The notes below the pieces were generated by a model. The model ran no database searches and had not been told where the DNA came from. It saw only the letters and a list, made by a program, of their open reading frames with translations. Made by a program: the position numbers and the translations under genes. From positions 1 to 20,008 of the IMG/VR virus record IMGVR_UViG_3300017751_004372: a DNA stretch of 20,008 bases; one strand, 5' to 3'. This document shows positions 2,158-15,499 of the stretch, piece after piece (positions within the stretch are counted from its first letter, which is position 1; every line of letters begins with the position of its first letter). The stretch is from a virus.

Positions 2158-2210
2158 GTTGTTATTATAACTGCTCCTTGCAGTGTAATCAATATTATTG
2201 GTGAAATCAT
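2154..2210 (-). CDS. Possible 18-residue hydrophobic micro-peptide between UvsW and the 166-residue gene
   Basis: The frame MISPIILITLQGAVIITT starts on an ATG that overlaps the UvsW stop (ATGA) and ends on a TGA that overlaps the next ATG (ATGA). Such double overlap is the junction style of this operon, and the peptide is wholly hydrophobic. There is no ribosome site of its own. It may instead be a coincidence, serving only to carry ribosomes from UvsW to the next start. Confidence 0.25.
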   Translation of the reverse strand: MISPIILITLQGAVIITT

Positions 2211-3667
2211 TTGTATTTTAATTTCTCAACTACAAACGGATAATTTGCTTCTCTGTAAAAAGCCTTTCTTTGTGTTAAATGTCGTTTAGCAAATCTGCAT
2301 GAACTTGTTAAGTCCCAGATTTGAACAAAGTCTTTATCTTCTGCTTTACGAATGCCACGACCGATAGACTGTATGACACGAACAAAACTTTTACCTGGTT
2401 CAATGAGTACAAGATTAAAAATCCTAGGAATGTTAATACCAGTAGAAGCCACGCCATAAGTAGCAATAATAACTTTATTAGTAGAAGTGGATACTTCATC
2501 ATATTCTTCTTTTCGATCAACAACTTTCATTCCCCCTGATACAAATACTGCATCGTCTAATCTTTCTACTAAAGCATGTCCTGCATTGATACGATCAACA
2601 AGGACAAGAGTATTGCCTTCAGTAGCAATGGTCTTAACAAGATGTGCCATTTTGTCTAAACGTTGTTCATCACTAAGCAAATGTTTTAGTTCACTTTGAT
2701 AATTACTAAACTCTTGGTCATCTTGCAACTGAACAATGTTTACATGACATTTTGCCAATACCCCTTGATCTTGTAATTCTTTTGCAGACAGTTTATTAAT
2801 AACTGGACCTAAACTTACTTCTAATGCAGTCTTTTCATAAAGTGCTTTTGGTATAGTACCTGTTAGTCCCCAACGAATAGGTACATGAGGCATTACCATT
2901 GTTAGCAGTTGCTTCAATGCATCTGCTTTAGCCATGTGTACTTCATCAACCATGACACAAATTACATCTTCGATAAATTCATCTATAGTGCATACTGCTT
3001 CACCTCTTTTAGTATTCTTTAATAGAATGTTCAGAGATTGCCAAGTACAAATAGTGTGTTGTTTGAAGTATTCTTTTCTATCACCGAAATATACTCCTAC
3101 ATCTAAGCCCATGTTGATATAGTCTTCTTCTGTTTGTGATACTAAACTTTTGTTTGGTACGATTACGATACTACGTCCATATTCTTCTACACTCTTGCTC
3201 AGAGCGGCTGTCATAATCGTTTTACCTGCGCCTGTAGCGACTTCTTGTATTGATTGAGGGTTTGCTAAGAACTGATTAATAACTTCTACTTGATAGTCTC
3301 TCAGTTCGACTGACTGCCCCTCACAGACATGTCCTTTAGGCCAGAGAACATCTTTGAATGTATCTTTCTGAATCTCTGTAAAATTAAATTGTGTTTGGTA
3401 TTCTCTTAAATCTTCTAGTTCAATATCATAGTTAAGTTGTTCTAAGATAGGAACAATTTCTGGTAGAAGATTAATAAATGTGGAACCAGCAAGACTACAA
3501 TAACTAACCTTGCCGTTCCATCTGCCTAACTTTACACTAGGCATATAACGTGCGCCAGGAACCTCATACTCAAACTTTTGCATTAATGCTCTACGAGCAT
3601 CTAATTCAAGACCAGCAATCTTTAGATTGACTTCATCTTTAATTTGTAGTATTGCAGTTCCTGGCAT
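2207..3667 (-). CDS. uvsW: UvsW-type ATP-dependent DNA/RNA helicase
   Basis: Superfamily 2 helicase that in T4 unwinds R-loops and branched recombination intermediates, drives branch migration and ends origin-dependent replication. The N-terminal DNA-binding module is recognisable (EVPGARYMPSVKLGRWNGKV, residues 35-54). Walker A is ATGAGKT (144-150), motif II is DEVH (241-244), motif III is GLTGT (267-271) and motif VI is QSIGRGIR (433-440). Length is 486 residues against about 500 in T4. The ATG lies four bases after the stop of the TonB-dependent receptor gene with no strong ribosome site, so translation is probably coupled to that gene. It fits with UvsX, UvsY-like and gp32 in the same minus-strand block. 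Confidence 0.93.
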   Translation of the reverse strand: MPGTAILQIKDEVNLKIAGLELDARRALMQKFEYEVPGARYMPSVKLGRWNGKVSYCSLAGSTFINLLPEIVPILEQLNYDIELEDLREYQTQFNFTEIQKDTFKDVLWPKGHVCEGQSVELRDYQVEVINQFLANPQSIQEVATGAGKTIMTAALSKSVEEYGRSIVIVPNKSLVSQTEEDYINMGLDVGVYFGDRKEYFKQHTICTWQSLNILLKNTKRGEAVCTIDEFIEDVICVMVDEVHMAKADALKQLLTMVMPHVPIRWGLTGTIPKALYEKTALEVSLGPVINKLSAKELQDQGVLAKCHVNIVQLQDDQEFSNYQSELKHLLSDEQRLDKMAHLVKTIATEGNTLVLVDRINAGHALVERLDDAVFVSGGMKVVDRKEEYDEVSTSTNKVIIATYGVASTGINIPRIFNLVLIEPGKSFVRVIQSIGRGIRKAEDKDFVQIWDLTSSCRFAKRHLTQRKAFYREANYPFVVEKLKYK

Positions 3668-3671
3668 TCTA

Positions 3672-5240
3672 TTATGGCCTATATTGTAGTGTAATTAAAA
3701 TTTCAACACCGCCCGAATTATATCCTGGCAAGTATTCATAAGTTTTATCTAGTATATCTCTTATTGTAGCAGATAGCAAGTAGTTAGGTGCAATTTCTGA
3801 TTCGATCTTATAATCAAGTGAACTTACATTATCTAACATTGCTATTCCATCATACGGTCCAGGCTTTCTGTCGAACAGTCCTGTATATGTAAATGACAAT
3901 GTATAATTATCTGCTTGATGTATGCTGTTGACAATTGCTTTGTACTTCGCAACTCTTGGTTGATCTGAATCAGTGTAGCCTAACTCGTAGCCTATGAATG
4001 TATCTAAGTAATCAAACGTCATTGAGTTGTTATATCTTACACCTTGTGTATCATATGAACCAGTATTAACAAACTGAGAAGAGGCAAAACTATAATCAAT
4101 GCCTTCAGAGAAATGATAATTGAAATAAGTTAGATTACCATAACCTAATTCATACCCTAATGCTTCCTCAGGATCTAAATTAAAGTTTGGCGCAGTCCAT
4201 GCATCACCATTTAACTCATAAAGAGTTGGATTACGATAAGATGTACCAGCACTAATAAAGAAGTCTCCTGATTCATAACCAATTCTACCTACTGTAGTAT
4301 CTTCTGTTATACGAATACCTATATTAGTATTAGTGAAGTTAAATAAAGCATAAGCAGAGATATTGTTCTGTGACATATCTTCATACTTTTCATATTCAAC
4401 CGTTCCACCATAGAGATGATTACCAATAGTGTGTCTTGTATCAACGTATGCTCTTTCAGCATCAGATGAGTAAGTCTCTACACCTTCTGTTTTATACTTT
4501 GCATCATTGAATGAATAACCAAATGTATAGTTATCATTTCTTACTGATAAACTTCCTTTAGTGCCTAACTGAGAACAATCATTTGACTGTGAGAAACTTG
4601 CTGTATAACAATTGTCGTAATCATAATCATACGAGGTTGCTGACACATTTGTAGTGAACTCACCTGTATCAAATTGACCTTTAGCAGTCATGTTTAAATA
4701 ATTGTCACTTTCATCATTGTCACTCCTGACACTACCATTGTCTACATTAAAGTAGGACAAATTAAAACCCTTAGCAGTGTGTGACATAAACTGATGTTTA
4801 TCACCTAGTCTTACCACAGAAACGTCTTTAGATAAATCGTCTTTAATAAAGACTGTGCCACCTAAACTTCCTGAACCATAAAGTACACTGTTGACTCCAT
4901 TGACAACTTTAATTGTCTCACTGCCTGTTGCATAATCATGTCCAAAATCATACCAACCACTACCAGCATCATTAGCAGGTACGCCATTTCTGAATACACT
5001 AGTGTGTATTGTTTGTGTTCCTCTTTCAGTGTAACCAGAAAATCCACCATAGCCGCCTGCTTGTGTTGCTTCTGGAATAAGTGATTCTAATAATAGCACG
5101 TCAGTACTAGGATTAGATTCTGATTCATATACAGTAGTTCCTACAACTACAACTTCTTCTACTTCTTGTGCTTCAACAGTCGCAACACCTAATACTAAGC
5201 AAATACTCATTGCTAGTTTGTTCATCGATCTAACTTTCAT
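3672..5240 (-). CDS. TonB-dependent outer-membrane receptor encoded by the phage
   Basis: The protein has a signal peptide (basic MKVRSMNK, hydrophobic core to about residue 21, cleavage likely after VEA or AQ). A TonB box EVVVVGT follows at 29-35, then a plug domain to about 137 with the family hallmarks FRNGVPAND (83-91) and VNGVNSVLYGSGSLGGTV (113-130). The rest alternates short aromatic beta strands and ends GVEILITLQYRP. The family imports siderophores, cobalamin or glycans across the outer membrane using TonB energy. At 522 residues it is short: the barrel is about 380 residues, against over 450 in BtuB. The final residue is Pro instead of the usual aromatic. GGAGG overlapping the end of the upstream gene, 11 bases before the ATG, is a good ribosome site. 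UvsW starts four bases after it. It is intact and in frame, embedded in the phage operon. Substrate cannot be told from sequence. It could be a nutrient importer, a receptor decoy or an exclusion factor. Confidence 0.88.
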   Translation of the reverse strand: MKVRSMNKLAMSICLVLGVATVEAQEVEEVVVVGTTVYESESNPSTDVLLLESLIPEATQAGGYGGFSGYTERGTQTIHTSVFRNGVPANDAGSGWYDFGHDYATGSETIKVVNGVNSVLYGSGSLGGTVFIKDDLSKDVSVVRLGDKHQFMSHTAKGFNLSYFNVDNGSVRSDNDESDNYLNMTAKGQFDTGEFTTNVSATSYDYDYDNCYTASFSQSNDCSQLGTKGSLSVRNDNYTFGYSFNDAKYKTEGVETYSSDAERAYVDTRHTIGNHLYGGTVEYEKYEDMSQNNISAYALFNFTNTNIGIRITEDTTVGRIGYESGDFFISAGTSYRNPTLYELNGDAWTAPNFNLDPEEALGYELGYGNLTYFNYHFSEGIDYSFASSQFVNTGSYDTQGVRYNNSMTFDYLDTFIGYELGYTDSDQPRVAKYKAIVNSIHQADNYTLSFTYTGLFDRKPGPYDGIAMLDNVSSLDYKIESEIAPNYLLSATIRDILDKTYEYLPGYNSGGVEILITLQYRP

Positions 5241-5243
5241 TTC

Positions 5244-6338
5244 TTACTTAACCTCCAATGGTCGTTTATTTTTTATTATTAGTATTTTACCCATCGCAAG
5301 ATTGCTGTGGAACTGATCATGGTCTATGTCAGAAGAATGTATCTGTAGATACATCGGTAAACTTTTGTCAGAAGTTGGAACTTCTGATGCTTCGATTTTG
5401 TTTCTAACGAAAACTGTATTGAAGTTTTTCTCTTGCAATGCAGTGATAACATCGTTAGCATATTTGATTGGCGAGTTGTAAGTATTAGTAGAAAAACTTA
5501 AGCCTCCGCAATAGATAGTGTTGCACTCTAATTCAGTGATCCATTCTAAGACTGTAGTAAGGTCATCATCGACATCTACTTCTACTGTTTGTGATGATGC
5601 AAATTTTAACTTAGCATCATCTCCTATAATTTCTTCATCTACATTAATACCTAACGTAGACATTTTGTATAAACATTTTGGAGAGTTATCTAATGTAGTA
5701 TCAGACAACAGATTATCTAAAATTTCATTTGATGATGTAACTTCGTATTTGCCGTTTGATAGAACTAACGTAGGATTCCAATGTTTCTTGGTTGCTTTTT
5801 CTTTTTCTAACTGAGTGATGATAGTATTTATTTCGTTGTGGTATACAGTTGTAAAAAAGGTAGGCAGTCTAGTATATGCTACACGTAAAGCAATGGACGA
5901 GGGAGGACATTCATAACGTTTCTTTTCTCCATTCCATTGCCAAGGATTTGCGAGTGTAGTTCTAAACTTATTAATGAAATCTTTTTTAAATGGCACTCTA
6001 ATAGTAAGTAGATTTTCTTTTGAATCAAAATCAACATTCGCATTAGTGTACTTAGGGAGACTCGGAACAACTGTAGACTGCCAAGGCAATTCTTTAAGTT
6101 CTTCTAAGTTTATTATGCCATGAGAGGCTAATTGCTTTCTATACTTACTGATAAGTTTATCAAACAAGGCAGCCTGATTCGATGTGATTTCTTTTTTCTC
6201 ATGTGTCAATGATTGCATGTTTGACATGAATTGAAAATCATAATGAGAGAGATTAATTTTACGTAGCGGGTCACTGGCTTTTAAGAAATACCAAATAACA
6301 TGTTCTTTACATTTAACATCTATACTTTCAAAACTCAT
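5244..6338 (-). CDS. HARP-like helicase-accessory protein without a helicase domain
   Basis: A 364-residue protein of uncertain function. Residues about 40-72 (LTHEKKEITSNQAALFDKLI, then SKYRKQLASHG) resemble the short helical module at the front of some phage and bacterial helicases. Residues about 104-150 (LTIRVPFKKDFINKFRTTL, then WQWNGEKKRYECPP) resemble the HARP annealing-helicase motif, in which an aromatic W-x-W/basic pattern binds DNA. The C-terminal half is acidic (VEVDVDDDLTTVLEWITELE) and may be a degenerate alpha/beta domain. No Walker motifs are present. It follows a strong terminator and carries its own TATAAT five bases before the ATG. The downstream TonB receptor gene starts four bases after its stop. 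The HARP comparison is from pattern memory and is moderate at best. Confidence 0.7.
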   Translation of the reverse strand: MSFESIDVKCKEHVIWYFLKASDPLRKINLSHYDFQFMSNMQSLTHEKKEITSNQAALFDKLISKYRKQLASHGIINLEELKELPWQSTVVPSLPKYTNANVDFDSKENLLTIRVPFKKDFINKFRTTLANPWQWNGEKKRYECPPSSIALRVAYTRLPTFFTTVYHNEINTIITQLEKEKATKKHWNPTLVLSNGKYEVTSSNEILDNLLSDTTLDNSPKCLYKMSTLGINVDEEIIGDDAKLKFASSQTVEVDVDDDLTTVLEWITELECNTIYCGGLSFSTNTYNSPIKYANDVITALQEKNFNTVFVRNKIEASEVPTSDKSLPMYLQIHSSDIDHDQFHSNLAMGKILIIKNKRPLEVK

Positions 6339-6432: not shown

Positions 6433-7470
6433 TTAAACTCTACGCATACAAGTTGATTCTGCTAACATTTTCCAGTTGTCATTTTTCTGGATTTTGAACA
6501 AGTCAGCAATCTTAAGAGCCATTCTCATTGAGATTTCTCTTAACTTTTCTGCGTTTTCTTCCATGAAGTCAAAGATCATTTCTGATTCGCCGTTCTTAAA
6601 CTTGTAGTCAGCAAACAATCCATCAGTGCAGTCTCTATCAACTTGCTTGATTCGTAACATTTTGTCACGGGCATTGTCGATAGTAAGATCCAAGAAGTGA
6701 CAACGTGATTGTAATGCTTCTAAGTGATCCTGTAACTTCTTAGACTTGATGTTATCAAACTTCAAGTTAGTAATGAAGATTGCACTACCTTTGAACTCAA
6801 ATGAGTTTGGAATGCCTTCTCTGTTTAACAGACTTGAGTCTGAGTTCCAACAAATCTTCCTAGACTTACCTGAATCAAGTGCCGCCTTAAGAATGTTAAG
6901 AGCAAGATCATCAGCAAATACAGAGTCACAATCGTCAAATACTAAAACGTTCTTAGCATCTGAGTACTTGTAAAGAACTGCATAAAGTCCTAATGCAGTC
7001 ATTGCACCTTTAACAACCTCATAACGAGTTCTGCTGTTAGTCAGTTGATCGAACAATGAAGCCTTCTCCATTTGTTGCTCAACGCCGTATGATTTACCAA
7101 CTCCCGGAGGACCTGAAACAATCATTGCTCTAATATCGCCTGCGATAGTAGCCTTAGACATATCATCTAAGATGTCGAATCTAGTTTTGATTCGGTCCAT
7201 TGCTTCTACGTCAGTCTCTACAACTTCTTTCTTAAGAGTAGTCGGCTCAAGACCGCCCATTATTGGGTTCGATGAACCCCATTCGATATCTTTGATGTTG
7301 TTCACCTTTACTCGAAAAGTTTTAATACCAAGTTTGCTTTGCCCTTCATTGAGAACAGTAACAAAGTTGCTACTTTTACCTCTTTGAAAGCCTTTCACTA
7401 ATGTGAATTCTTGGTTGATGATTGGTGCATTTTTGTACTCGCCGTACTTTATAGTGATTTTATTAGACAT
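6433..7470 (-). CDS. AAA+ family ATPase
   Basis: Walker A is GPPGVGKS (residues 120-127), Walker B is VLVFDDCD (175-182), with a sensor-1 Asn in IFITNLKFD (about 235) and an arginine-finger candidate in ALQSRC (R256). About 110 residues precede the ATPase core, beginning KITIKYGEYKNAPII, and look like a beta-rich binding domain. At 345 residues it is not a gp44 clamp-loader subunit. Its architecture is that of the remodelling-type AAA ATPases annotated in other marine T4-like phages, whose function is not established. The second Asp of Walker B is followed by C-D rather than E, giving DDCD. Ribosome site GAGGT lies nine bases before the ATG. Two consensus promoters precede it and a UUCG terminator follows, so it is an independent, highly transcribed unit. 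Targets are unknown. Confidence 0.88.
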   Translation of the reverse strand: MSNKITIKYGEYKNAPIINQEFTLVKGFQRGKSSNFVTVLNEGQSKLGIKTFRVKVNNIKDIEWGSSNPIMGGLEPTTLKKEVVETDVEAMDRIKTRFDILDDMSKATIAGDIRAMIVSGPPGVGKSYGVEQQMEKASLFDQLTNSRTRYEVVKGAMTALGLYAVLYKYSDAKNVLVFDDCDSVFADDLALNILKAALDSGKSRKICWNSDSSLLNREGIPNSFEFKGSAIFITNLKFDNIKSKKLQDHLEALQSRCHFLDLTIDNARDKMLRIKQVDRDCTDGLFADYKFKNGESEMIFDFMEENAEKLREISMRMALKIADLFKIQKNDNWKMLAESTCMRRV

Positions 7471-8330: not shown

Positions 8331-8576
8331 TTAATCCCAGTGATCCTCTTCTTCAGCATCATCAGGATCGTCAAGGTCATTTACATCTTCATCAGAAAAG
8401 TACGATAAGGCTTCGATAATTTCTTCATCTTTGCCAAATGCTTTTTTGATTTCTGTTGCAGTCATACCATCATCGATCAAATGATTTACTAATAGATCGG
8501 CGGCTTCCCTAGGGTCACCATCTTCAATACTGGGTTTAATTAATACCCAAACACTTGATAAGTCATTTAGATTCAT
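8331..8576 (-). CDS. Small acidic protein coupled to UvsX, 81 residues
   Basis: Its ATG overlaps the UvsX stop (ATGA). The predicted helices REAADLLVNHLIDDGMTATE and IKKAFGKDEEIIEALSYF look like a compact helical domain, followed by a strongly acidic tail rich in D and E ending EEEDHWD. Similar short proteins next to uvsX occur in marine T4-like phages by memory, with no assigned function. The acidic tail could mimic DNA or bind a basic partner, which is speculation. Confidence 0.7.
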   Translation of the reverse strand: MNLNDLSSVWVLIKPSIEDGDPREAADLLVNHLIDDGMTATEIKKAFGKDEEIIEALSYFSDEDVNDLDDPDDAEEEDHWD

Positions 8577-9655
8577 TCTACGTTTACCTCTTCGTTTTCC
8601 AATGCATCTTCGTTATTTACAACATCTAACGCATCTTTAACTTCAGAGTATTCGGACATGAGTCTATCTAAACAACCATCTTCGTTTGCTTCCCAAGGCT
8701 TTCTAAACTTGAGAACTTCTTCACCTGATTGAGTGATGTACTTCAATCGATTGCCTTGCTTAGTTAACAAGCCTGATTTCTCAAACAAGTCAACAAGACC
8801 TGAATAAGGATTCATACCTGTCTCATAAGGAATCTTCACTTGCACACCCTCGAAAGGTTTTGCATAACGAGTCTTCATTACTTTACAGCCTGCACGAATA
8901 CCTTTAACATCAGAAACTTTGTTGCCGTCTGCATCTTCTTTTAGTTTCATCTTCTTCATAGCAACAACAATACTAGATGCATAGATAAAGCCTTGACCAC
9001 CTGATATTTTATCATCTGGGTCAAACATATCTTGTGATGCATATGTATGATTAGTTGCAACAAGTCCAACGTTATAACTTCCGAACATGTTAACAGAGTT
9101 TCTTACTAATGATGTTAGTGCTTTAGGCTTACGACCCATGTCCCCTTTCATGTCCCCTTTGTCGAATTGATCAACATCAGTTGGTGTCAACATCATACCT
9201 AATGAGTCAATTACAAATAACACTTTAGGACGTTCTTCGTCTGCCATTGCTTTGTAATCTTTCATAAAGGTTGATATAGTTTTTGCTACATCGTCAATCA
9301 TACTCATGCTTAACTTAAGAAGTTTTTCTTCTGAAGTGTCAACTTGTAATGCTTGTAGCCATGCTTCATCAAGTGCGTTCTCTGTGTCAATTAAGACTAC
9401 AAAGATGCCTTGATCTTGTGCTGACTTTACAATGTTGCCTGCGGCAAAGTATGATTTACCTGCGCCTGATTCACCTGCAAAGACTGTTACCTTACCTAAA
9501 GGAACACCTTGATGGAAGTCACCTGAGATAAGATAGTTCAATGCATAAGAACCTGTTGAGATCCAATCAGTTGGATCGTTGAAACCTATTGATAAGCCAT
9601 CGATAGATTTGGTTATGTCTTTCCTAAATTTGGAAACGTCAAATGGTTTTGCCAC
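8573..9655 (-). CDS. uvsX: UvsX, RecA-like recombinase
   Basis: ATP-dependent strand-exchange protein that forms filaments on ssDNA for recombination-dependent replication. The RecA core is clear: Walker A GESGAGKS (61-68), Walker B KVLFVIDS (144-151), and an ATNHTYASQDMFDPDDKISGG-like L2 region near 200-220. The 360-residue length is close to T4 UvsX (about 390). The start is GTG at 9655, eight bases after AGGAG. An acidic tail (ENEEVNVE) is suited to partner regulation. It follows the BPSL0761-like gene and is coupled by ATGA to the 81-residue gene. It works with gp32 and the UvsY-like protein. Confidence 0.96.
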   Translation of the reverse strand: MAKPFDVSKFRKDITKSIDGLSIGFNDPTDWISTGSYALNYLISGDFHQGVPLGKVTVFAGESGAGKSYFAAGNIVKSAQDQGIFVVLIDTENALDEAWLQALQVDTSEEKLLKLSMSMIDDVAKTISTFMKDYKAMADEERPKVLFVIDSLGMMLTPTDVDQFDKGDMKGDMGRKPKALTSLVRNSVNMFGSYNVGLVATNHTYASQDMFDPDDKISGGQGFIYASSIVVAMKKMKLKEDADGNKVSDVKGIRAGCKVMKTRYAKPFEGVQVKIPYETGMNPYSGLVDLFEKSGLLTKQGNRLKYITQSGEEVLKFRKPWEANEDGCLDRLMSEYSEVKDALDVVNNEDALENEEVNVE

Positions 9656-9949: not shown

Positions 9950-10927
9950 CTAACTATTATTTTGCCTTGCACGAATCATTGCTAGAATGTCGTTTGCTTT
10001 ATCGCTAGATGGGTTTGCTTCAGAAGGAGTTTCTACTGCTGGTGCAGTTTCAACTACTGGTTCCGACGGAGTAGATGTTTCTGCTGGAGTTGCTACTTCA
10101 GCCGCTGGCGCTGGGGCCGGTGCTGGAGTTCCTGCAGGTGCATCAACACCATATGGACGATAGTAAGCACCGAACTTGTCAGTGTCATATGGACGACCAT
10201 CTACTGATGCCTCGAACATTTCTTTAATGACTCTGAGTTCTGACTCACTTGGCTTCTTAGGTAAGAAGTCTGCTAGATTGAATAGACCATGTGCTTCAAC
10301 AGCCGCTTGTTCTACTTCAGTCAATGCAGTTTCTTTACGAGACCATGATGATGTTGAGTAATCAGCATACTGACCTTTAGTCGTTTTCTTAATGTTGAAA
10401 TCAAGACCACGCATGTAATCAGTTGGCAACTCTTCCATCTCAGGATCCATCAATGAAGACTTGATCGTTTGAAAGATTTGAGGTGAAATAACAAATCTAC
10501 GAATAGGATTCGCAGGAGTATTGTCTTCCCCAATTGGGTTTTGACGAACAAAGCCTTGAAAGAGATAACTTCTCTTCTTCCAGTATTTGTTAGCCATTTC
10601 TTTTAGAGTTTCGTCTTTGTACCAAGGACGAACTTCTGCTAGTACAGGACAATTTTCTCCGAACATTTCAACACAAGGAACTTGAACAGTCACTTGTTTT
10701 GAATTTACTTCACCTTTAATACCATTGAATGGTAATTTGATGACTTGTCGTTCAATCCAAAAGAATGAGTTACCAGTATCAGCATCGGGTAAGAAACGCA
10801 ATGATGCTAATGCACCTTCGTCCATTTTCCAATGAGGATAAATCGCTCCGTCAGATTGGGGATAATTCCCTGTAGGTTTATTTTCTTGTGCCGCGAGACG
10901 GGCACGTATGTCAGCTAGACTTGCCAT
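9950..10927 (-). CDS. 32: gp32-type single-stranded DNA-binding protein
   Basis: It coats ssDNA at forks and recombination intermediates. The N-terminal region ADIRARLAAQ is basic, as in the gp32 cooperativity domain. The core has LRFLPDADTGNSFFWIERQV (43-62), PCVEMFGENCPVLAEV (84-99) and KYWKKRSYLFQGFVRQNP (114-131), the family signature. T4 binds zinc with one His and three Cys. Here only C85 and C93 are evident, and the Cys after CPV is replaced, so the site looks degenerate. Instead of an acidic tail there is a Pro/Ala/Glu/Thr linker (262-308) ending NDILAMIRARQ, which echoes the N-terminal ADIRARLAAQ. GGAG lies nine bases before the ATG. It has a strong promoter, a leader hairpin and its own terminator, as expected for a highly made and possibly autoregulated protein. 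Confidence 0.92.
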   Translation of the reverse strand: MASLADIRARLAAQENKPTGNYPQSDGAIYPHWKMDEGALASLRFLPDADTGNSFFWIERQVIKLPFNGIKGEVNSKQVTVQVPCVEMFGENCPVLAEVRPWYKDETLKEMANKYWKKRSYLFQGFVRQNPIGEDNTPANPIRRFVISPQIFQTIKSSLMDPEMEELPTDYMRGLDFNIKKTTKGQYADYSTSSWSRKETALTEVEQAAVEAHGLFNLADFLPKKPSESELRVIKEMFEASVDGRPYDTDKFGAYYRPYGVDAPAGTPAPAPAPAAEVATPAETSTPSEPVVETAPAVETPSEANPSSDKANDILAMIRARQNNS

Positions 10928-11198: not shown

Positions 11199-12530
11199 AT
11201 GTACATAAATTCATACATGCGACTATCGATTGCATTTGCACTTTTATTTATTGCCATGGCATATACGCCAAATATTTCTGCACAGGCCACTGGCACCTGT
11301 ACAGCAGGTACCGAGAATTGTGAGGCAAGTACTTCTACAAGTACTACTACAAATACGAATACCAACACCTCGACTAATACTAACACTAATACCAATACCT
11401 CTACTAATACCAACACGAACAATAATACCAATACTAACACCAATACGAACACCAATACCAATACCAATACCAACACTAATAACAATACTAATAATAATAC
11501 TTCGACTAGTACCAATACTAACACGAACAATAATACCAATACTAGTACTTCGACCAATACCAATACGAATAATAATACCAATAATAACACAAACAATAAT
11601 ACCAATACTTCAACAAGTACCAATACCAATACCAATAACAATACGAATAACAATACTTCGGCTAATACCAATACTAATACGAACAATAATACCAATACTT
11701 CAACAAGCAATAATACCAATACCAATAACAATACCAACAATAGTACGGTAAACAGTACCTCGAATAACACCAATACGAATAACAACAATTCTACTATTGA
11801 CCAAAATGTAAATTCTAATAGTACTTCAAACAATACTAACACGAATAACAATAACACGACCAGTAATAATACCAATAACAATAATAACACTTCTACTAGT
11901 ACAAGTGACTCTAATGTGACCACTAACAATACCAGTAAGAATGAAAATAACAACACCAACACAAACAATAACACCAACATAAACAAAACTGATCAAACTA
12001 TTAAACAGGAGATCACAACTAAGGCACCACCAGCAAGTGCGATTGCACCGAGTATCGGGTCTAGTTATTCACAAGATTTATGTACAACAGGTGTGTCTGG
12101 AGCGTTTCAGGGTCAAGTGTTCGGTTTATCAGGTGGTAAGTCTGTTAGAGATATGAACTGTGAAAGAATTAAGTTGTCCAAAACAATATATGATATGGGT
12201 ATGAAAGTAGCCGCAGTATCATTAATGTGTCAGGATCCTAGAGTATTTCAAGCAATGGAAATGGCAGGAACACCTTGTCCGTACATGGGTGCAATTGGAC
12301 CAGCCGCTTCTGACAGATGGGAAAAGAATGAAGACAGACGTCCTGATCAAAAGAAAGGTGTTAAGAGTAAAATCTTAGGCGTATTCAGTTCTGACAAAAT
12401 TGAAGTTGACCAAATATCAAACGTAACTGCTGATGAAGCCGCTTATTTAGAAAAATGTACTAGACCTGACTTTAAAGGAAGACGTAAATCTACTAAGAGT
12501 TGTGAAGCAGAATGGCACGATTCACAATAA
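11199..12530 (+). CDS. Secreted Asn/Thr-repeat protein with Cys-containing C-terminal domain
   Basis: Signal peptide at residues 1-30 (SYMRLSIAFALLFIAMAY core, SAQA cleavage site). Then comes a region of about 220 residues made almost only of Asn, Thr and Ser (44-264), mostly TN and NN pairs. After a short TKAPPASAIAPS linker is a folded domain at 270-443 with several Cys: SQDLCTTGVSGAFQGQVFGL, RDMNCERIKLSKTIYDMGMK, SLMCQDPRVFQAMEMAGTPC, then a basic end. I recall similar C-terminal domains next to Asn/Thr/Ser-rich segments in other marine T4-like phages, with no known function. AGGA lies nine bases before the ATG. A second ATG at 11217 (MRLSIAF) would also give a signal peptide. It overlaps the next gene by 19 bases. 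It probably acts in the periplasm, at the cell surface or on the virion. Confidence 0.85.
   Translation: MYINSYMRLSIAFALLFIAMAYTPNISAQATGTCTAGTENCEASTSTSTTTNTNTNTSTNTNTNTNTSTNTNTNNNTNTNTNTNTNTNTNTNTNNNTNNNTSTSTNTNTNNNTNTSTSTNTNTNNNTNNNTNNNTNTSTSTNTNTNNNTNNNTSANTNTNTNNNTNTSTSNNTNTNNNTNNSTVNSTSNNTNTNNNNSTIDQNVNSNSTSNNTNTNNNNTTSNNTNNNNNTSTSTSDSNVTTNNTSKNENNNTNTNNNTNINKTDQTIKQEITTKAPPASAIAPSIGSSYSQDLCTTGVSGAFQGQVFGLSGGKSVRDMNCERIKLSKTIYDMGMKVAAVSLMCQDPRVFQAMEMAGTPCPYMGAIGPAASDRWEKNEDRRPDQKKGVKSKILGVFSSDKIEVDQISNVTADEAAYLEKCTRPDFKGRRKSTKSCEAEWHDSQ
11328..11990 (+). repeat. Low-complexity AAY ACN repeat tract coding for Asn/Thr
   Basis: About 660 bases of degenerate hexamers of the AAYACN type (AATACC, AACACT, AATACG), interrupted by AACAAT, ACTTCG and AGTACT units. 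Synonymous third bases vary (ACC, ACT, ACG; AAT, AAC), so the amino-acid pattern is kept while the DNA is not a perfect tandem repeat. Both Asn and Thr stay while codons drift, which argues for protein-level selection. The tract may still change length by recombination. Confidence 0.9.
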
Positions 12531-15499
12531 TATCATTACTATTGATGCTACCCATGTTTGCGGTAGCACAATACACTCCTCCTGACTACAATGAGTCGAA
12601 TGCTGACGGCACCAATACCATTTACTCAGTTACTGGAGATTACGGAGATTTATATGATTTGACTCGTAGTGGTCTGACTGGTGTGTCAGGTTGTACCAAT
12701 GGTCAATTTAGTGATGACAGTGGTTGTAATGTAAGAATGGAATTTGGTTTTTCATGGGAGTGGCATAACGACTCGTATACTGCCGCAGTAATGAGTACGA
12801 ATGGTTGTCTTAAATTAGTAAAAGAAAGTTACACTATTGGTAATTGGAACAGTTTGATGTGCTACGACTACCTACCAAATCAATTAGGTAGTGGAGAAGA
12901 AGGTTATACTAAACATGTAACTGATACTCTTTTTCCCTTTTATACTGACTTGATTGGGGGAAACAGTAACAGTGCATTATTATATAAAGCATTTGATGAT
13001 TATGCCATATTCGGTTGGTATAATTTAAAAGAATACAATAGAGCATCAGAAAACAGTTTTGAAGTTTACATATTTGATTACAATGACTCTAGTGCAAAAT
13101 GCGGAGACAGTAATACAAGAATAGCCTGTACTGATTCAGAAAGAGCAGAAGTAAACAAACCTGACAACTATGGATTTTTGTACGGTGATTTAGATATCAT
13201 TCAACATGATGTTTTGATCGGAGAACAAAAAAGCAATACAAACTATACTCAATATCTATTTTATGATGACAACACAGATAACTTAGGTGATGGTAGTGTT
13301 GACAATACTTTTGATGATATGGATCAAGGGTACATAGAAGACGGTGGAGGTATATTATATTCAGAAGCAGACGGCGAGCCCGTTCAGTGTCAAAGCAATC
13401 CTTTATATTCAACAGATTGTTTATTGTATGATCTAGCATATTTAGAATATCAATGTAATTTAGATTCACAATATGATAGTGGATGTGAGTTATATGAAGG
13501 AAATGAAGTAGATCAAGGGTTGATGTGTGAAATTGATCCATTGTATGATCCAAGTTGTCCCGGGTATGATGCCGCAATAATGGCTACTAGTTCAGGAGGT
13601 TACAATCCAAGTACAGGATTAATTACTGATCCTAATACTGGAGAACAATACAATACAGATGGGTCTGTATACAATGATGGTTATGTCTATGATGACGGCG
13701 GTGTCAATGGTGACTTCGGTGATGATCCTTGGATGGAAGGTGGTGTATATGATCCTAGACTTGATCCTAACATCTCATATGATGACTTGAACACAGAACA
13801 ACAGATGTTAGTTGATCAAGGTTTATCTCCGCAAGATGCTATGTTTGTTACAATGGGAAATGAACAAATAGCCGCATTAGGTGAAGATCCATTAGCAGTA
13901 CAATTCAACGGACATAGACCAGGCGAGTATGTATTAGATGCTGTAGGTGGATTAGAAAACTATGATACTCAATTACATGATACTGCAATGCAACAACAAT
14001 CACTTGAATGGGATCCTAATGGTAACATTGACACACTTACTGCTGATGTTTGGGCAACTGAAGAATTTCAACAACAAGAAACAGAACGATTAGAGGGTAT
14101 GGTTGAAACATACGGAGACGATTTTTATTCGTTCACAGACCAAGATTGGTATGAACATGATGTTGCAACATATGGACAAGAAGAAGTTGATCAATGGCAC
14201 GAAAACATAGAATTTGATGAAGAAGGCCAAATCGATTGGGACACATTTGTTGAAGGTGCTCCTGAAGAAGAAATTTGGATAGCACAAAATGATGAGTTAA
14301 TGCCTGATTACACTGAAGAAGAAATCTTTGTAGAATCTGATGAAGTATTTGAACTTATAGTAGAAGATGAGGCATTTGAAGAATTAATTAGTGAAGCAGA
14401 ATTAGAAGAATTAACTGCTGACGAATCTACTGAAGAAATAAGAGCAGAGGAAGTGATCGAGGAACAAGTATTAATCGTAGAAGAAGAACAAGAAGAAGTC
14501 CGTGAAGAAATAGCACAAGAAGAAGTACGTGTAGAGAAAGAAGCAGAACAGGCTGTTTCAAGTTCTGGCTCGTCTTCTAGGTCAAGACCTTCTTATCAAA
14601 GTGTTGCTATCTCACAATTTGTTTCTGAAGTCTCAGATGATGCACAAACTGCCAATGTCATTGAAGATGTAATCAGTGACGGTGGAGCCTCTGCGTCAGT
14701 ACAAGTTGATTCAGGTGCATCACAAAGTTTTGCAGGACAAGACGGTAGTAGTTTTAATAACACTGGTTCACAAGCAGTTGCTAGTTCATCTAGTAGTGAT
14801 TCAACTGGTGCAATCGCAGACAGTTCAAGTCAACAACAATTTGAACAAGTAACTGGTCAAGTAGACACTGCTATTGATGTCTCTAGCACGTCTGTAGACG
14901 TTGTACAGACTTCTGCCTTTGAAGTTGCTGTACAACAACAAGAAATGATGCAAGAAGAACAGTTATTTGTGGAAAACTTCGATGACGGTACTGGTGGAAT
15001 TAGTAGTACTGACGTACAGTTTGAAGATAGTTTAACTGAAGCATTGGCGACTGGCACAGGATTGACTGAATTTTTAAGTCAACAAGCACCAAACTTTCAA
15101 CGTTTTGAAGTACAGAACTCAGTACAAGAACAACGTACTACAGAAGCAGTTGAGAGTTTAGCAGACTCTGTTGGCGCTACAGTTGCACAAGCAAACTTAG
15201 AGGCACAACTACAGAATATACAAGAAGGCGAACCTACTGATGAGGGTGGGTATGCTGACCAAACGATTGCTGTTGCCTATATAGGTTATACAGCAGGGTT
15301 TAGTGCTTACACAGGTGAGCAAGTATATAGTCAAGGAAATGCAGGCTTCTTTGACAAAAAACAAATGCCAGATGGTAGGATAGATGACAACAAAATGGGA
15401 TTCTATCGTATGGCTGGCAACACACAAGAAAAATTGTATAAGATGGTTCTTATGCAATATGGAATTAATCCAGATGAAGAAACACAGGAGCAAAAATAA
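12512..15499 (+). CDS. Large secreted acidic protein with NIDO-like domain and Cys repeats
   Basis: A 995-residue protein. Signal peptide 1-19 (FTIISLLLMLPMFAVA). Residues about 60-255 resemble the NIDO (nidogen-like) pattern: TLFPFYTDLIGG, YAIFGWYNLKEYNR, ENSFEVYIFDYN, GFLYGDLDIIQHDVLIGE. Residues about 292-353 hold three copies of a unit C-x3-P/S-x-Y-x3-C-x2-Y. A Gly/Tyr/Asp region follows. Residues about 580-685 are extremely Glu-rich and likely helical. About 685-775 is Ser/Gln-rich. The last 85 residues (DQTIAVAYIGYTAGFSAYTG, GFYRMAGNTQEKLYKMVLMQ) look folded and conserved. NIDO domains are extracellular adhesion modules in animals and bacteria. The role here could be a virion decoration, a fibre-like adhesin or an envelope protein acting on infected cells. 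It is coupled to both neighbours (TAATG at the end). Confidence 0.85.
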   Translation: MARFTIISLLLMLPMFAVAQYTPPDYNESNADGTNTIYSVTGDYGDLYDLTRSGLTGVSGCTNGQFSDDSGCNVRMEFGFSWEWHNDSYTAAVMSTNGCLKLVKESYTIGNWNSLMCYDYLPNQLGSGEEGYTKHVTDTLFPFYTDLIGGNSNSALLYKAFDDYAIFGWYNLKEYNRASENSFEVYIFDYNDSSAKCGDSNTRIACTDSERAEVNKPDNYGFLYGDLDIIQHDVLIGEQKSNTNYTQYLFYDDNTDNLGDGSVDNTFDDMDQGYIEDGGGILYSEADGEPVQCQSNPLYSTDCLLYDLAYLEYQCNLDSQYDSGCELYEGNEVDQGLMCEIDPLYDPSCPGYDAAIMATSSGGYNPSTGLITDPNTGEQYNTDGSVYNDGYVYDDGGVNGDFGDDPWMEGGVYDPRLDPNISYDDLNTEQQMLVDQGLSPQDAMFVTMGNEQIAALGEDPLAVQFNGHRPGEYVLDAVGGLENYDTQLHDTAMQQQSLEWDPNGNIDTLTADVWATEEFQQQETERLEGMVETYGDDFYSFTDQDWYEHDVATYGQEEVDQWHENIEFDEEGQIDWDTFVEGAPEEEIWIAQNDELMPDYTEEEIFVESDEVFELIVEDEAFEELISEAELEELTADESTEEIRAEEVIEEQVLIVEEEQEEVREEIAQEEVRVEKEAEQAVSSSGSSSRSRPSYQSVAISQFVSEVSDDAQTANVIEDVISDGGASASVQVDSGASQSFAGQDGSSFNNTGSQAVASSSSSDSTGAIADSSSQQQFEQVTGQVDTAIDVSSTSVDVVQTSAFEVAVQQQEMMQEEQLFVENFDDGTGGISSTDVQFEDSLTEALATGTGLTEFLSQQAPNFQRFEVQNSVQEQRTTEAVESLADSVGATVAQANLEAQLQNIQEGEPTDEGGYADQTIAVAYIGYTAGFSAYTGEQVYSQGNAGFFDKKQMPDGRIDDNKMGFYRMAGNTQEKLYKMVLMQYGINPDEETQEQK
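13385..13572 (+). repeat. Three-copy Cys-pair protein repeat inside the 995-residue gene
   Basis: Three units of about 20-24 residues: CQSNPLYSTDCLLYD, CNLDSQYDSGCELYE and CEIDPLYDPSCPGYD. Each has C-x3-[PS]-x-Y-x3-C-x2-Y, with paired Cys able to form one disulfide per unit after export to the periplasm. The DNA of the copies differs, so this is an old protein-level repeat. Confidence 0.8.

Follow-up and report, generated by a model that had tools for sequence, protein, structure and literature searches.

Why a phage would keep a gene for an outer-membrane receptor inside an operon of recombination genes was the question raised by a 20,008-base IMG/VR contig, which was analysed over its whole length and is called the window here. 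The open reading frame concerned (3672..5240; minus strand, as are all its parts and its recombination neighbours) starts with ATG, follows a Shine-Dalgarno sequence GGAGG that lies within the 3' end of the upstream gene (5252..5256), and encodes a BtuB-like TonB-dependent outer-membrane receptor (TBDR) of 522 aa, as judged from the Pfam Plug family (PF07715), NCBIfam TIGR01779, an AlphaFold2 (AF2) model and Foldseek. A leader (signal) peptide was recognised by eye at about residues 1-24 (5169..5240, with an inferred cleavage site), and a TonB box, EVEEVVVVG, was located by eye and from conservation at residues 26-34 (5139..5165). Leaders were seen by eye in all aligned relatives, and mean conservation over 63 representatives was 0.73 for the TonB box versus 0.36 for the leader; both elements, first named in a sequence-only reading of this DNA, are thus visible and conserved in the relatives. 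An odd conserved leader, NFHxNFSPLYAxxxFMLFMLWASE, heads 57 of the 158 receptor ORFs (L042:9938 and L019:9929 are examples) and alternates with ordinary leaders across distant receptors. It was considered as a separate phage module and rejected as such, being seen in no other ORF of the receptor loci.

The plug domain spans about residues 35-137 (4830..5138; Pfam match at residues 46-129, and AF2). The same reading had named a plug and proposed HMMER comparison with both receptor families: PF07715 was matched by the window protein at 35.4 bits (E 1.6e-8, cut-off 23.9) and by 21/21 aligned relatives, and the barrel model PF00593 was matched by two of the 21 relatives and not by the window protein. 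The AF2 model, built from 21 relatives (pLDDT 74.5, pTM 0.77), contained a plug and exactly 22 barrel strands (DSSP; residues 138-522, 3675..4829), and its best 50 Foldseek matches were all TBDRs. Because 22 strands are predicted, the canonical number, the strand count was taken as normal and the loops as short, so that an earlier description of a 'short barrel' applies to loop length and not to strand number. The last residue is Pro, non-aromatic as had been remarked; the C-termini found in the family are RP, R, K, N or W, and the non-aromatic end is a trait of the clade. The C-terminal ends of the phage receptor and BtuB could be aligned (YETVYGYQTAGREY / YEYLPGYNSGGVEI). PADLOC gave no defence match for the receptor.

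Downstream of the receptor lies a UvsW-like helicase gene (2207..3667; phrog_16, E 1.8e-79, and other helicase families), with 4 nt between the receptor stop and the UvsW ATG. Upstream is a 'HARP-like' gene (5244..6338) whose stop is 3 nt from the receptor ATG; four-base gaps had been claimed on both sides and are found on the UvsW side only, and the HARP-like identity gained no support from Pfam, in which the gene has no family. Further upstream are a phage AAA ATPase (6433..7470; phrog_1250, E 2.3e-84), which is a conserved neighbour, a UvsX-like recombinase (8573..9655; phrog_97, E 2.7e-69) and a gp32-like single-strand binding protein (SSB; 9950..10927; phrog_1192, E 3.4e-63, PF08804). The identities of UvsW, UvsX, SSB and TerL in the window were backed by Pfam or PHROGs. 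As far as the contigs reach, the order SSB - UvsX - ... - AAA - [HARP-like] - TBDR - UvsW was found in every receptor locus of at least 9 kb except L040. Among receptor-bearing loci, the HARP-like gene was confined to the clade of the window; of the 76 informative loci of a second clade, whose UvsW is about 54-59% identical to that of the window, 62 had the receptor immediately flanked by AAA and UvsW. The gene is thus resident between phage genes in many contigs, and synteny with UvsX, SSB, TerL and UvsW in many independent contigs rules out an assembly join or host contamination, for which the recurring neighbourhood had been proposed as the check. With the intact ORF, the Plug match and the AF2 model, this recurrence bears out the view that a full-length TBDR is built stably into the operon. 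On the opposite strand (11199-15499, plus), the window also carries two adjacent genes for secreted proteins, one of 443 aa with Thr/Asn repeats and the other of 995 aa with a leader and without a Pfam match; their counterparts in L019 are 84-87% identical.

BtuB is the outer-membrane cobalamin transporter of Gammaproteobacteria, and kinship to it was estimated by several routes. The NCBIfam model TonB-B12 (TIGR01779) matched 21/21 aligned relatives. For the window receptor the match (E 2.2e-13, 49.6 bits) lay far below the equivalog cut-off of 599.7 bits, and the protein is therefore called BtuB-like and was not filed as BtuB; matches to haem/haemoglobin and ZnuD receptor models were weaker. 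When the family profile was compared with all PDB chains, BtuB alone was found at about 2e-16, and PhuR followed at 1e-3. BtuB (2gsk) was also the first Foldseek match of the model (TM 0.76), which makes it the closest protein in both the sequence and the fold searches of the PDB, and hhalign aligned the family profile to E. coli BtuB with a probability of 98.3. BtuB (TIGR01779; PDB 2gsk, 1nqh) and the phage receptor have in common a plug, a 22-stranded barrel, a similarly small size and a TonB box. They differ in sequence (about 20-24% identity between phage receptors and bacterial BtuBs, in line with the score far under the equivalog cut-off), in the shorter loops of the phage protein, and in genetic setting, the phage gene lying in a recombination operon with no cobalamin riboswitch in the window.

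Bacterial relatives, found by searching bacterial genomes with the phage profile, pointed to the same ligand class. A cobalamin-class riboswitch was present upstream of 15 of the 17 best relatives tested: directly upstream in 8/8 of the first eight, and in 7/9 of the further ones, where one was of the AdoCbl-II type and one barely above threshold. As a control, 30 of the 90 Plug matches in the eight genomes were scanned for riboswitches, these being the loci that the search kept and not a random draw; nine had a cobalamin riboswitch, and when scored with the phage profile these took precisely the top nine places (46.7-106.5 bits versus at most 25.7 for the other Plug genes), a ranking expected by chance once in C(30,9) (p = 7e-8). 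In a quick tree of 50 receptors, in which the phage branch is long (2.12), the phage clade (support 100) was placed inside the BtuB/B12-riboswitch clade (31 rows, SH-aLRT 97) and apart from CirA and other receptors of those bacterial genomes; one member of the BtuB/riboswitch clade, L375, has no riboswitch. The riboswitch-controlled bacterial TBDRs (for example L363, L365 and L366), although the best bacterial matches, stand outside the clade formed by the phage receptors (support 100 for that clade) and differ in being ORFs of 600-690 aa, several of which stand beside btuFCD-like or cob-like genes by eye.

Residues of the ligand side were then compared. Extracellular loop 2 lies at residues 170-179 (SVRSDNDESD; 4704..4733) and the loop 3 region at residues 204-222 (YDYDYDNC...SNDC; 4575..4631). 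In BtuB, D179, D193, D195, Y229, D230 and D241 are what we take to be the Ca2+ ligands of loops 2 and 3. When 62 phage proteins were aligned, the positions of D193, D195, Y229, D230 and D241 held E, D, Y, D and D, kept in 62, 62, 61, 62 and 53 of the 62 proteins, respectively; the corresponding window residues are E177, D179, Y208, D209 and D221. The column of BtuB D179 is Ser in the phage receptor, so that five of the six Ca2+-site columns are kept as E, D or Y, and the acidic positions of loops 2 and 3 count among the likenesses to BtuB. Loop 3 also carries a cysteine pair, Cys211/Cys222, which is invariant in the phage family, absent from E. coli BtuB and present in L363, the best bacterial relative, where the motif reads YDNC...TNDC. 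Import of cobalamin, one of several roles suggested from the sequence, is the best supported of them, by profile, Foldseek, riboswitches, tree and Ca2+-site columns.

The gene is under purifying selection, as its dN/dS of 0.13-0.21 against relatives indicates. Over the 63 phage representatives, extracellular loops were more conserved (0.65) than strands (0.54), and strands more than periplasmic turns (0.38). Bacterial cobalamin receptors gave the same order of loops, strands and periplasmic turns when the phage topology was transferred onto their sequences; an AF2 model of an enterobacterial BtuB, intended as a control, reached a pLDDT of 48.6. A barrel segment at about residues 281-400 (4041-4400, minus) has been exchanged among close relatives, the window resembling L006 there and L005 resembling L011. 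Between the window and L005, synonymous divergence was 0.24 in the receptor gene versus 0.03-0.10 in neighbouring genes.

The first scan of viral contigs yielded 47 relatives of the receptor, and a profile-guided scan of IMG/VR yielded 158, from 100% identity downward. Of 14 long records tested, 13 had the gene, each in a single copy; they include contigs of 217 kb and 250.5 kb, from whose size the viruses bearing it are probably jumbo phages. No receptor was found among isolate phages (50,697 phage records, tblastn with two family members). No bacterial member of the family came up among 84,980 species genomes scanned by motif or in profile searches of overlapping sets of 369, 398 and 299 genomes, in which the best bacterial score with the phage profile was 80 bits (107 for the whole ORF) versus about 600-850 for full-length phage members. 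The family is apparently virus-only, and recent capture from a host was rejected on this absence of bacterial members from the motif scan and profile searches.

Among the best 80 UvsW matches, 75 were without a receptor, although some of these, such as L098, start too close to uvsW to be judged. In many receptor-less relatives the AAA, HARP-like and UvsW genes follow one another without interruption, and the HARP-like gene runs into uvsW; empty sites of the second clade have an AAA-UvsW gap of 86-103 nt in nine loci and 492 nt in two. In the UvsW tree, the clade of the window (25 receptor-bearing rows and the truncated L098) was sister to 43 receptor-less rows, and the longest branch split off the second clade. 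From the empty sites and this tree, the receptor gene entered a defined slot. Seven receptor-less loci (L126, L134, L146, L150, L156, L159 and L167) hold unrelated cargo genes in the AAA-uvsW interval, which is accordingly regarded as an insertion site for accessory genes. The window-clade receptor is 47-51% identical to some second-clade receptors, and second-clade members are more divergent among themselves; on these sequence comparisons, a later transfer between the phage clades is favoured. A rooted tree nested the window-clade receptor in the second clade (88/94 and 94/84). This nesting was not kept as proof of transfer, since a reduced unrooted receptor tree set the two clades cleanly apart and the AU test does not decide the matter.

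Taken together, the evidence favours a viral importer of corrinoids (B12), derived from a bacterial BtuB, produced in the infected cell and drawing its energy from host TonB, a reading to which we assign a probability of roughly 60%. We infer the steps as follows. The receptor gene would be translated during infection together with the recombination and replication operon, and its product would be brought to the outer membrane and inserted there by the host Sec/BAM machinery. There it would bind a corrinoid at the conserved extracellular loops, probably at a Ca2+-ordered site of loops 2 and 3 like that of BtuB, and import it on the energy of host TonB-ExbBD, with uptake completed by host BtuFCD. 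The benefit to the phage would be that host reactions which depend on B12, such as methionine synthase and the methyl/folate cycle, are kept running through the long infection of a large phage.

Phage-encoded users of B12 were looked for as well. NrdJ was not found over cut-off in 23 phage records, and NrdA adjoins NrdB in the phage records examined, so the phage ribonucleotide reductase (RNR) was assigned to class I, which is not B12-dependent; CobS was absent from the phage records. A link to a B12-dependent viral enzyme through RNR or CobS was dropped on these grounds. With a class I RNR and no confirmed phage B12 enzyme, any gain for the phage would come by way of B12 enzymes of the host. 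Of 21 receptor-bearing records, 4 matched the B12-binding domain PF02310 and there was one further weak match, versus 1 of 10 records without a receptor. The proteins in receptor-bearing records (L264, L265, L266, L267 and L418:3161-5230) have lengths of about 616-728 aa and contain partial B12-binding domains. They resemble radical-SAM proteins, and a Pfam radical-SAM domain was found in the weak match, L418:3161-5230, the only one scanned; a DxHxxG motif was not visible by eye in the PF02310 proteins.

The ligand may have drifted in specificity since BtuB, given the score far below the cut-off, the identity of about 20-24% and the long branch. As a rival reading, the protein would be a working TBDR for something other than B12, be it haem, a siderophore, a different metal chelate or a modified corrinoid relative; the switch would have come after it left the BtuB clade. 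The long branch and the identity of about 22% to bacterial BtuBs speak for such a switch, as do the weaker matches to haem/haemoglobin and ZnuD models and the metal cofactor that NrdAB, and hence the phage enzyme, requires. The first-rank similarities are nonetheless all to cobalamin receptors, and with five of six Ca2+-site columns kept, a change of ligand is possible but doubtful.

BtuB is a well-known receptor of phages and colicins, and phages use TonB-dependent receptors for entry. A phage copy might thus replace or mask host BtuB against phages and colicins that use it, while still admitting some B12, and both the position of the gene within a cargo-rich interval and the exchanged barrel segment, as pressure on surface parts might cause, would suit superinfection exclusion of this kind. 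It is nevertheless unlikely, because across 63 diverse proteins no part of the barrel is better conserved than the extracellular loops, and exclusion alone would need neither the TonB box nor the acidic residues of the ligand side, all of which are kept.

Phages can pick up host genes, and the receptor gene could in principle be such a recent acquisition that serves no function, or its product could act on rival phages as a decoy. Viral TBDR genes are indeed on record (PMC9723777, PMC8857322). Such an origin is very improbable for a virus-only clade of 158 relatives at a fixed locus, with no bacterial member in the motif-scanned species genomes or the profile-searched ones, and with loops that are conserved and not diversifying; loops conserved above strands, together with the kept TonB box, suit a functional ligand receptor more than a decoy. 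That the protein merely ties up host TonB by its conserved TonB box is hardly credible, since the conserved loops and the plug and ligand residues are not needed for that and purifying selection extends over the entire gene. Occupation of TonB, exclusion of colicins or rival phages and a decoy function, all raised alongside cobalamin import, were not supported and are improbable.

SusC-type TBDRs have large barrels of about 800 aa or more, an N-terminal carboxypeptidase-like domain and a SusD partner; the window receptor has 522 aa and no such N-terminal domain by Pfam. The only clear TBDR match to the receptor model in BFVD was A0A8D9FQQ5 from an uncultured marine phage, which is of the SusC type (805 aa model; TM 0.57, 12% identity). 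The marine megaphage Mar_Mega_1 encodes a SusC-type TBDR proposed for carbohydrate uptake, likewise a viral TBDR, for which the accessible part of the paper describes no conserved operon position (PMC9723777). TBDR domains are enriched in Bacteroides/Alistipes gut viral bins (PMC8857322) and occur in hot-spring phage bins (PMC6302217); the available sections of these two reports give domain counts or annotations and no BtuB kinship, fixed locus or ligand class. No earlier report of a viral btuB or cobalamin receptor was found in open-licence PMC papers. Viral TBDRs as such are already known; what appears to be new, no report of it having been found, is a conserved, apparently virus-only TBDR family with a narrowed ligand class.

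The 250.5-kb contig (G021) carries additional genes of envelope and signalling type. A CHASE2-domain adenylate/guanylate cyclase (L410:3346-5415) lies about 3 kb from a FecR-domain protein and curlin-repeat-like secreted proteins (L410:8694-11526; curlin match below the Pfam cut-off), an arrangement that resembles bacterial surface-signalling clusters. A DUF481 outer-membrane barrel (L416:1847-2530) and a lipoprotein-like FG-GAP protein (L415:3900-6335) are also present, so that this phage has further envelope genes besides the receptor.

The wider picture, for and against which we see even odds, would be a lineage of large T4-like phages with a long-fixed B12 importer of their own, probably reshaping the surface of the infected cell, the gene having apparently been passed between distant clades into the same slot. 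B12 limits many marine microbes. If it is imported by these receptors, viruses would intervene directly in the movement of a limiting vitamin, and infected cells would become sinks for B12.
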